The notes under the pieces: model-generated
What the model saw: the letters and a program-made list of their open reading frames with translations, nothing else
Database searches by the model: none
What the model was told of the DNA's origin: nothing
Shown: positions 46,735 through 51,738 of the stretch, in pieces
Layout: each line of letters opens with the position of its first letter
How positions within the stretch are numbered: position 1 is the first letter of the stretch
Assembly: GCA_017882455.1 (NCBI GenBank)
Contig: JADGPL010000022.1
Coordinates: 1 to 53,931, forward strand
Source of the DNA: Solirubrobacteraceae bacterium
Lineage (GTDB): Bacteria; Actinomycetota; Thermoleophilia; Solirubrobacterales; Solirubrobacteraceae
Length of the DNA stretch: 53,931 nucleotides
Reading direction: 5' to 3'
Position numbers and translations under genes: made by a program

Positions 46735-47352
46735 ATGGAGGCAGCCAGCATCAGTCACGGAGCCGCTCACGCGGGCGAGCACCACGGCCCGCCGGCGGCG
46801 AACCGCAGCTCGCGGGTCGAGCCCGCGCTGCTCGGGATGCTGCTTTTCATCATCTCCGAGATCATGGTCTTCGGGGCGTTCTTCACCGCCTACTTCTTCA
46901 TCCGCATCGCCAGCGGCGACCCGTGGCCGGCCCACGGCACCACCCTGCCGGTGCAGGTCGCCGGCGTGAACACCGCGATCCTGGTGTCCTCCTCGTTCAC
47001 GATCCACTGGGCCCAGACCTCGATCAAGAACGGCAACCGCTTCGGGCTGAAGGCCGGCATGCTCACGACCTTCCTGCTCGGCTGCACGTTCCTGTTCATC
47101 CAGATCAACGAGTACGCCAACATCGGCTTCGCCCCCCAGGACGCCGCCCAGCAGACGATCTTCTACTCGCTGACCGGCCTGCACGGTGCCCACGTGTTCA
47201 TCGGGCTGCTGCTGCTGCTGTTCGTCACGATCCGATCCTTCCGCGGCCACTACACGCCCGAGGAGCACCGCGGGGTCGAGGTGCCCGGCATCTACTGGCA
47301 CTTCGTCGACATCATGTGGTTGGTCGTTTACACGACCGTCTACATCCTCTGA
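46735..47352 (+). CDS. ctaE: Cytochrome c oxidase subunit III, second cluster
   Basis: ATG 46735, preceded by GAGGAG, gives 205 residues with five hydrophobic spans. The first block is LLGMLLFIISEIMVFGAFFT, with the conserved Glu; LTGLHGAHVFIGLLLLLFV and GIYWHFVDIMWLVVYTTVYIL are the subunit III signatures (HGxHV, YWHFVDxxW). It stabilises subunit I and its proton uptake. The first oxidase cluster lacks a subunit III gene, so it may be shared or encoded elsewhere. Confidence 0.94.
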   Translation: MEAASISHGAAHAGEHHGPPAANRSSRVEPALLGMLLFIISEIMVFGAFFTAYFFIRIASGDPWPAHGTTLPVQVAGVNTAILVSSSFTIHWAQTSIKNGNRFGLKAGMLTTFLLGCTFLFIQINEYANIGFAPQDAAQQTIFYSLTGLHGAHVFIGLLLLLFVTIRSFRGHYTPEEHRGVEVPGIYWHFVDIMWLVVYTTVYIL

Positions 47353-47354
47353 CG

Positions 47355-47497
47355 GTCTGACGGCTGTGGACACGGTGCTGGACGATCTCCGATCGGTCTG
47401 CGTCCTCGGTCGCTCATGTGCTCAAGCACATTTCAGCGCTACTGCCTGTGCCCCGAAGGGGTACGTCCTTGTCTCGCTTGATCCACAGCCGTCAGAC
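47355..47497. ncRNA. 143-nt element with perfect inverted ends and internal hairpins
   Basis: GTCTGACGGCTGTGGA (47355-47370) and TCCACAGCCGTCAGAC (47482-47497) are a perfect 16-bp inverted repeat enclosing 111 nt. Inside are GGACG/CGTCC (47380-47384, 47401-47405), CGCT/AGCG around ATGTGC-TCAA-GCACAT (47411-47438), and GTGCCCC-GAA-GGGGTAC (47448-47464, one G-T pair). Together they give a multibranched cloverleaf. It begins 3 nt after the coxC stop and ends 24 nt before a small ORF. It could be a structured RNA or attenuator, a 3'-end processing element, or a short MITE. No target-site duplication is clear. Confidence 0.5.
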
Positions 47498-47520: not shown

Positions 47521-47631
47521 GTGCTGAATCCTCTGCGCTCCGAGGATGAGGCCTTCCGCTTCCTGCTCTACGCGATCGCCGTGATCGTGGTGATCGTCGC
47601 CTTGATCCTGATCCTCCGCGCGATCCTCTGA
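47521..47631 (+). CDS. Small single-span membrane protein after coxC
   Basis: GTG 47521 to TGA 47631, 36 residues (VLNPLRSEDEAFRFLLYAIA...). A charged N-terminus (RSEDEAFRF) leads into one long hydrophobic span (LLYAIAVIVVIVALILILRA). It has no Shine-Dalgarno match, so it may be leaderless. Its place after subunit III, together with the 37-residue peptide in the first cluster, suggests accessory oxidase subunits. Coding is judged by composition and length only. Confidence 0.6.
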   Translation: MLNPLRSEDEAFRFLLYAIAVIVVIVALILILRAIL

Positions 47632-50623: not shown

Positions 50624-51012
50624 GGCCACGAGGGCTGGCGGCCGCAGCCTGCGTAGCGCTGCTCGCGCTGGGCGTCACGGCATGTGGTGGCAGCAGCGTG
50701 TCCGACGCTGTGCCCAAGAGCACGCCCGAAATCACACCGCCGACAGACACGAGCGCCGAAAAGGCTGCCGTCCAGACGACTTCCACGTCGACCACCGCGA
50801 CCAAGACTTCGAGCACCAAGAGCGAAGAATCATCCGGGGGCGAACAGTCCGAAGGCGGCGAAGAATCCGCGAGCAAAGAAAGCTCCAAAGAAACCGGAGC
50901 ATCGGGCGGCGCCCCGGCCGAAGAAAAAGAAAAAGCCAGCAGCGAAACCAAAGGCGGCGGGGAATCGGCCGGCGGCGGCTCCAGCCCCACCGGCGGCGCC
51001 AGCGCCCCCTAG
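50620..51012 (+). CDS. Low-complexity lipoprotein
   Basis: TTG 50620 overlaps the previous stop and gives 130 residues. A signal sequence (LAAAACVALLALGVTAC) ends with a lipobox Cys at about 18. The rest is almost entirely Ser, Thr, Lys, Glu, Gly and Ala (TSTSTTATKTSSTKSEESS, SKESSKETGASG). This looks like a disordered surface tether, compositionally related to the LPFTG protein at 11804. No domain; role unknown. Confidence 0.65.
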   Translation: MRPRGLAAAACVALLALGVTACGGSSVSDAVPKSTPEITPPTDTSAEKAAVQTTSTSTTATKTSSTKSEESSGGEQSEGGEESASKESSKETGASGGAPAEEKEKASSETKGGGESAGGGSSPTGGASAP

Positions 51013-51018
51013 CGACCA

Positions 51019-51059
51019 AGGACGCCGGATCGGCCAGCGCCGGCCAGCGGGGGCGTCCT
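51019..51059. terminator. Hairpin overlapping the next stop codon
   Basis: AGGACGCC (51019-51026) pairs with GGCGTCCT (51052-51059) across a GC-rich loop that can itself pair. It lies between convergent genes (lipoprotein + and secreted protein -), overlapping the stop at 51058. Bidirectional termination is likely. Confidence 0.6.
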
Positions 51060-51738
51060 AAGGGGTGGAGATCAGCGTGGCGCTGTAGGTCAGACGCGCG
51101 GTCTGGTAGAGGCAGAAGTACTGGACCGGGACGCCGATCTGGGTGTCGGTCGTCTGGGCGCTCGTGCTCGTGCACTGCTTCTTGGGACGGCTCGCGCGCC
51201 ATGAGGTGTCGTTGCCGAAGCCGAGCGCCAGCGCGGGCGCCCACGAGGGCACCGTGAGGGCGATGACGTCGCCCTTTTTGACGGGGATGGTCGTTTCGAG
51301 CGGGAACTGGGCCGTCTTGCCGAAGTAGGGCTGGAGCTTGACCAGCGGGCCCTGCGCGATCAGCTTGTAGGTGAGGTTGGGGCTCTTCTGCGCCCGCAAC
51401 ACCGCGATGCCCGCTTCCGATACCCCGCCCTCGTTGGCGTTGAAGAACTTGATCTGGGTGGCGTTGGGCTTGCCCAGCGTGATCGTCCAGGCGACGATCG
51501 TGCCTGTCTGGGTGGCGCTCAGGGGGTTGCGCACCGTGCCGACCTTGACCTGGAAGCCCGTCGTGCGGCTAACCGCCAAGCATGGACTGGCCGGGCAGCT
51601 CGGCACCGTGGGCGGCGTCGTCGCCGGGATCACGCCGATTTCAGCCAGCGTGGCTGGTGCCACGGCGGGCGCCACCAGCGCGAGCGCCAGGGCCCCGAGC
51701 ACGGCTATATGCATGTTTATCCGTCTCATCTGTGCCAT
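51058..51738 (-). CDS. Secreted beta-rich protein of unknown function
   Basis: ATG 51738 or, two codons later, 51729 gives up to 226 residues. The signal peptide is MHIAVLGALALALVAPAVAP with cleavage near APATLA. The body has disulfide-type Cys (PSCPASPCLAVS, KKQCTSTS, VQYFCLY) and regular strands (TGTIVAWTITLGKPNATQIKFF, GDVIALTVPSWAPALALGFG). It resembles a paralogous secreted family seen in Solirubrobacterales. No enzymatic motif. Confidence 0.7.
   Translation of the reverse strand: MAQMRRINMHIAVLGALALALVAPAVAPATLAEIGVIPATTPPTVPSCPASPCLAVSRTTGFQVKVGTVRNPLSATQTGTIVAWTITLGKPNATQIKFFNANEGGVSEAGIAVLRAQKSPNLTYKLIAQGPLVKLQPYFGKTAQFPLETTIPVKKGDVIALTVPSWAPALALGFGNDTSWRASRPKKQCTSTSAQTTDTQIGVPVQYFCLYQTARLTYSATLISTP

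Follow-up and report, generated by a model that had tools for sequence, protein, structure and literature searches.

Elements of the Correia/NEMIS and ERIC/RU-1 type, which are miniature inverted-repeat transposable elements (MITEs), are roughly 100-190 bp in length, foldable and noncoding, lie near genes, and are present or absent between relatives. The attC site of integrons is an imperfect hairpin at a stop codon, with variable stem sequence, conserved structural features and a functional bottom strand. Here we describe a hairpin element that follows the gene coxC in a 53,931-nucleotide stretch of DNA from a Solirubrobacteraceae bacterium (contig JADGPL010000022.1), called the window below. 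It resembles the Correia/NEMIS and ERIC/RU-1 elements in its size, folding, proximity to genes, lack of coding capacity and patchy distribution. Unlike them it lacks a terminal inverted repeat of fixed sequence, and no direct duplication of the target site was seen; what is fixed is the length of a stem and an internal core. With attC it shares the hairpin at a stop codon, the variable stem sequence, the conserved structure and the bottom strand; but it follows core chromosomal genes, and its stem positions 7-17 are near background. Conserved columns corresponding to attC R boxes (RYYYAAC/GTTRRRY) at both ends were absent from a gapless alignment of 55 copies.

The repetitive extragenic palindromes (REPs) and bacterial interspersed mosaic elements (BIMEs) are a further point of comparison. 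REPs are described as 20-40 bp in length, their terminal tag, GTAG or CGTC, being unpaired (PMC3733652). That source also gives the likenesses to our element: dispersed extragenic palindromes, mostly 3' of genes, lying between co-directional or convergent open reading frames (ORFs) and sometimes within larger palindromes. Our element differs in being about 103-190 nt in size, in lacking both the terminal tag and a REP-associated tyrosine transposase (RAYT), and in having a 17-bp stem that is copy-specific and contains host flank.

Our reading, to which we give a probability of about 0.55, is that the window element belongs to a family of small, non-autonomous mobile hairpins and is a copy that nested modules have altered. 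To judge by Rfam and the open-access literature the family had no name before, and no description of such a hairpin family was found in open-access papers.

A dispersed family of hairpins at gene ends

A covariance model was built from 12 copies of the window's own genome. It finds 13 strong copies in that genome and between 8 and 61 copies in each of eight relatives. A sequence search of the own genome gave one full match and dozens of short matches to inner parts. Across Solirubrobacterales there are matches in 83 of 151 genomes, with none in some congeners and at least 26 in others, and in a phylum-wide sample 18 of 396 genomes have matches, some of them from other classes. The named matches to an exact pattern are mostly from Solirubrobacterales and other Thermoleophilia metagenome-assembled genomes (MAGs). 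The exact pattern occurred in no viral contig and in no plasmid or phage record, and carriage as phage or plasmid cargo was rejected. One canonical copy (L243) lies on a contig labelled as a Chlamydiae MAG, which is probably a mis-binned Solirubrobacterales contig, and at L110 two nearly identical copies stand in tandem about 105 nt apart.

In its usual form the element is a single imperfect hairpin of 103 nt, with a core enclosed by two stems. From its base inwards it has an outer stem of 17 bp, the internal loop GGCG/CTT, an inner stem (P2) of 6 bp, the conserved core and an apical hairpin. The constant core comprises TGCGTCCTCGGTCGCTC, then the apical hairpin, then CACGCTCCCTGCGTCCTTG, and contains conserved tandem TC/TC mismatches that become tandem GA/GA on the other strand. 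Both enclosing stems vary between copies, and are complementary within each. Read in the antisense direction, the 55 gapless copies have the 17-bp stem, an AAG/CGCC loop, the 6-bp inner stem, the core and a 6-bp apical hairpin, the core having seven pairs interspersed with mismatches that include two tandem GA/GA motifs. In distant copies, from other classes, the outer stem is far longer, and the element often starts at a TAA or TAG stop.

The earlier note had looked to compensatory change in homologues as the mark of an RNA, and such change is strong. At the homologous coxC site of a congener (L144) the pair TGAGGGCCATGGA/TCCATCACCCTCA takes the place of TGACGGCTGTGGA/TCCACAGCCGTCA in the window. 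Within the 55 gapless copies pairing is found in 92.3% of cells, compared with 70.9% when shuffled, and double changes occur at 26 of the 36 pairs. The covariation score is 0.547, against 0.150 ± 0.009 for shuffled controls and at most 0.116 for slid structures. A cloverleaf plan, as that note had proposed, is peculiar to the window copy, the regular members forming one long imperfect hairpin; a cloverleaf or four-way junction was rejected for the family, as several copies break the hairpins proposed for the conserved halves and the single-hairpin pairing fits better. Its statement that no named RNA family has this plan stands. A scan of the window element against Rfam 15 gave no family above the gathering threshold, and ten loci with canonical copies gave nothing at E<=1 except a neighbouring tRNA outside the element. 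A riboswitch or known noncoding RNA was rejected for want of an Rfam match.

The copies are located where core genes end, at the stop codons of rpsG, nusG, recA, ftsZ, rpoD, clpP and coxC, genes that were called as such from their sequences. In a set of 105 distinct copies, the sense gene upstream has its stop codon at stem position +1 to +3 in 29 of 76 cases and exactly at +12 in 12 of 76. Gene-sense orientation alone is found for 39 and antisense alone for 16. The copy at L104 is preceded by the apparent 3' end of a tRNA gene and no stop codon.

Such a location might suggest a retained RNA element of the 3' untranslated region (UTR), that is a structure at the transcript end (a factor-dependent terminator, an exonuclease block or a processing site) whose pairing is under selection. 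The placement at core-gene stops, the strong covariation across families, the conserved internal loops and the commoner gene-sense orientation are all consistent with this. Yet there is no T tract past the hairpin. TTTT occurs within 15 nt in 2 of 105 copies in the sense direction and 0 of 105 in the antisense direction, and an intrinsic terminator was rejected on that basis. The wobble pairs and folding energies described below favour the strand that is absent from the upstream mRNA, and the pairing with host codons would be unexpected from UTR selection alone. Occupancy of the sites also speaks against a retained element. Comparing 14 congeneric genomes at the coxC site, we find the window copy, a canonical copy at L144, a remnant with an internal deletion at L131, and no element in the other 11. 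Presence within the genus is similarly patchy at nusG-rplK, rpsG and rpoD, where most congeners have no element. We consider the UTR explanation unlikely.

In a second genus, contiguous empty sites were recovered with a flank-joined query, their flanks being 73-91% identical. At nusG the filled site reads ATCTAG, the element and GCTACACTCC, and the empty site reads ATCTAGCTACGCTCC. Congeners with similar flanks and no insertion point to dispersed insertion and not to a fixed operon regulator. From the patchy sites together with the contiguous empties we conclude that the copies are dispersed insertions, gained and lost. A dedicated control of the downstream small ORF, which the earlier note had entertained, or of the oxidase operon is not supported, as 11 congeners lack the element and the small ORF is present in all 14; the window copy is not a dedicated regulator. 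The family explains why a structured stretch recurs where core genes end (rpsG, nusG, rpoD, ftsZ, recA and coxC), both in this little-studied order and in further classes of the phylum.

Host flank in the arms of the outer stem

Watson-Crick pairing in the outer stem is about 80% at pairs 1-16, 0.63 at pair 17 and 0.40 at pair 18, and is at background from pair 19. The stem length per copy peaks at 16-18 bp (53 of 94 copies). In the subset f3 the stem sequence is conserved only over the first 4-7 pairs and is near background beyond, with pairing at 75-94% as far as pair 16.

Judged by empty sites, the left arm is host coding sequence, encoding RQPL at gcvP, QLPV at L079 and QLEL at L109. The filled gcvP site reads ..GTC CGT CAG CCT CTC TGA.. 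and the empties read ..GTC CGG CAG ACG CTC GCC TGA and ..GTC CGC CAA CCC CTG GGC TGA. The left arm here is made of the gene's own codons, and the first empty lacks the mirrored copy that forms the right arm. The second empty (G083) holds, in its native stop region, a string partly similar to the right arm. At L116 the left arm ends in the host stop region CCTGA, and the right-arm TCAGG is mostly new. In 15 copies that have codons as their outer 12 nt, these pair at 81% with their own right arm versus 32% with the right arms of other copies. Where this can be checked, the element itself supplies the inner ~5 bp of the stem, and the outer ~12 bp are flanking host DNA in one arm and an inverted copy of it in the opposite arm. 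We read this as the copying of ~12 bp of flank into the opposite arm. Insertion into long terminator palindromes that were already present was rejected, since the empties have no 17-bp palindrome and short ones are found at some sites only.

The either/or test offered by the earlier note, in which compensatory change would indicate an RNA and duplicated flanks a mobile repeat, fails to separate the cases, because pairing and inverted flank duplication are both present. More generally, covariation in hairpins with variable arms may not prove RNA function, because arm-to-arm copying yields the same signal.

The sequences at the ends also bear on a DNA-transposon MITE, an internal-deletion derivative of an insertion sequence (IS) with terminal inverted repeats, for which a TA/CTAG target would explain the TAG stops flanked by CTA. 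Ends of the form TAG...CTA are indeed frequent in the window's genus, and TA is found at both ends of several distant copies. Against this, the ends in f3 are often CTGA...TCAG, an inverted and not a direct repeat, and a CTAG or TA target duplication as the whole explanation was rejected as not fitting that family. The upstream stops are TGA in 47 cases, TAG in 26 and TAA in 3. The terminal sequence is copy-specific, unlike repeats recognised by a transposase. Inverted ends are individual to each copy, with shared ends only in some distant genomes. A MITE-like repeat was among the guesses of the earlier note; an origin from a DNA transposon of this kind we regard as improbable.

Strand preference and a possible mode of insertion

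On the gene-sense strand, the outer stem contains 111 A.C mismatches against 50 G.T, compared with 140:145 outside the stem; counted per copy, A.C is in excess in 48 and in deficit in 11. A gene-sense A.C mismatch is G.U on the antisense strand, so that wobble pairing favours the latter. Of 104 copies, 90 fold better as the antisense strand, and so do 20 of 20 distant copies, by a mean of 20.8 kcal/mol, where control flanks differ by 0.7. The conserved TC/TC mismatches, which are tandem GA/GA on the antisense strand, point the same way. In most groups, then, wobble pairs and folding energies both speak for the strand that is antisense to the gene upstream.

A mode of insertion can be suggested. 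The active single-stranded form would be the strand antisense to the upstream gene, as RNA or as single-stranded DNA (ssDNA), and would insert at gene ends. The 3' end of the new strand may then fold back on the element's own inner stem and copy ~12 nt of adjacent host DNA. Such fold-back copying during insertion would make the 17-bp stem at the insertion itself. An RNA form would move by target-primed reverse transcription, the alternative being an ssDNA form. Copies at gene ends would be tolerated, and may act secondarily on transcript ends. In a small sample of partial copies (L047, L049, L054 in the window, and G158) the left half is kept; if synthesis starts on the left, the end copied last is the one that is missing. 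We propose only tentatively that this is a new class of tiny mobile element, with a single-stranded hairpin form and an inverted flank copy of fixed length made by snap-back synthesis at each target. If the 17-bp stem is built in this way from host flank, the signature of insertion would be an inverted and not a direct duplication of the flank, of which we found no published description.

A number of observations weigh against a mobile element that acts in this manner. At L079 and L109 the right arm is similar to host sequence at its outer end, and only part of it is new. A few copies have codons on the right arm, some empty sites hold short palindromes of their own, and a rho copy of the same lineage stands in opposite orientations in the congeners L091 and L125. 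The rho inversion and the right-arm codons indicate that copying is not strictly one-sided; the inversion could arise by template switching or by recombination between the arms. Some sites, such as rpoD, carry the element in three families of the order, as would be expected if copies are retained for long or certain sites are preferred. Family f2 shows no A.C excess, the excess is weak once each repeated mismatch is counted a single time (46 vs 36), and the window copy is an exception to the antisense preference, folding better as the gene-sense strand (-71.6 vs -64.9 kcal/mol). No direct target-site duplication was seen at the empties of nusG, L108, gcvP and L079, where there may be a 2-bp duplication of GC or TA. 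The search for a mobilising enzyme covered the Y1 transposase and reverse transcriptase families. Y1/RAYT (PF01797) was absent from all the element-bearing genomes tested and was found in one of 20 genomes, G005, which has no match to the element. Reverse transcriptase (RVT_1) is present in the copy-rich genomes G000, G149, G056, G110 and G053 and absent from G025, G023, G146, G092 and G108, and was rejected as a constant companion of copy-rich genomes.

The main rival for the origin of the stem is an ordinary insertion with short inverted ends, the stem being lengthened and maintained afterwards by template switching in replication (quasipalindrome corrections). Template switching has been reported to generate RNA hairpins and keep them intact (PMC8794818); it is also reported to homogenise the arms of inverted repeats and invert their spacers (PMC8604942). 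Arms made complementary by copying are what our element has in common with the hairpins of PMC8794818, and the inverted rho copy and the short palindromes at empty sites would fit the same process. Unlike those hairpins, the element has a conserved core and one stem length at many loci. A single stem length is not predicted by template switching, yet lengths cluster at 16-18 bp, and the conserved mismatches within the hairpin persist. We judge this explanation rather unlikely, if a serious one.

The absence of Y1 transposases bears equally on a REP/BIME element mobilised by RAYT. An extragenic palindrome near stop codons with CGTC motifs in its core has the appearance of one, but CGTC is internal here and on both sides, in contrast to the terminal unpaired tag of REPs, and the phyla surveyed for REPs in the available part of PMC3733652 do not include this one. 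This possibility is very remote. The lifestyle of the mobile hairpin that we favour is REP/MITE-like; it does not pass the tests that define a REP, and MITE status is not established.

The copy after coxC and its neighbours

The window copy is closed by a perfect 16-bp outer stem, in which GTCTGACGGCTGTGGA (47355-47370) pairs with TCCACAGCCGTCAGAC (47482-47497) across a spacer of 111 nt with no mismatch, just as the earlier note had described. The minimum free energy of the 143-nt element as RNA is -71.6 kcal/mol, compared with -47.8 ± 4.1 for dinucleotide shuffles (z = -5.83), and none of 200 shuffles was as good; for the opposite strand the value is -64.9 (z = -4.9). The inner stems that the note named are all present, namely ATGTGC-TCAA-GCACAT (47416-47431), GTGCCCC-GAA-GGGGTAC (within 47446-47465) and GGACG/CGTCC. 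The distance from the coxC stop codon is 2 nt and not the 3 nt given there. The features, all on the plus strand except the last, are as follows.

46735..47352 (+): coxC, cytochrome c oxidase subunit III, the upstream gene (Pfam COX3, E 2.9e-41); stop codon 47350-47352
47355..47370 (+): outer stem, left arm of 16 bp without mismatch, beginning 2 nt past the coxC stop
47371..47377 (+): CAC-GGTG, the left arm's inner end and the internal loop on its 5' side (GGCG in the family consensus), from the family alignment
47378..47383 (+): inner stem P2, 5' side, CTGGAC, from the family alignment
47384..47398 (+): nested palindromic module GATCTCCGATCGGTC, not in canonical copies
47399..47415 (+): conserved core, left half, TGCGTCCTCGGTCGCTC, from family comparison
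47416..47431 (+): apical hairpin ATGTGC-TCAA-GCACAT, covarying with GCGTGC/GCACGC of other copies
47432..47445 (+): conserved core, first part of the right half, from family comparison
47446..47465 (+): nested hairpin module CTGTGCCCCGAAGGGGTACG, with a 2-nt overlap with core CGTCC
47464..47470 (+): conserved core, end of the right half, CGTCCTT, from the family alignment
47471..47476 (+): inner stem P2, 3' side, GTCTCG, from the family alignment
47477..47479 (+): CTT, conserved internal loop, 3' side, from family comparison
47480..47497 (+): right arm of the outer stem, GA and TCCACAGCCGTCAGAC, from pairing with the left arm
47521..47631 (+): 36-aa membrane-type ORF VLNPLRSEDEAFRFLLYAIAVIVVIVALILILRAIL, kept after coxC with or without the element
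51002..51060 (-): second, partial copy, the left half (arm, GGCG, stem, GGCGTCCTTGGTCGCT), directly past the stop of the ORF 51058-51738(-)

Within the family the window copy is derived and composite: it retains all the family landmarks and has two nested modules in addition. It is these modules (47384-47398 and 47446-47465) that give it the look of a cloverleaf. Short palindromic modules are nested in the loops or strands of other copies too (L009, L011, L013, L018 and L023), and are also found solitary elsewhere in the genome.

The 36-aa ORF has no Pfam match, and is probably a small subunit of the oxidase operon. The partial copy (L054) is closed by a short stem, in which GGGGGCGC is complementary to its own left arm.

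At L159, L167, L171, L172, L207 and L208, 3' of rpsG and nusG, there are perfect palindromes centred on (G)CATG(C), each with its own arms and often several in succession. These constitute a second family of variable-arm palindromes at the same gene ends.
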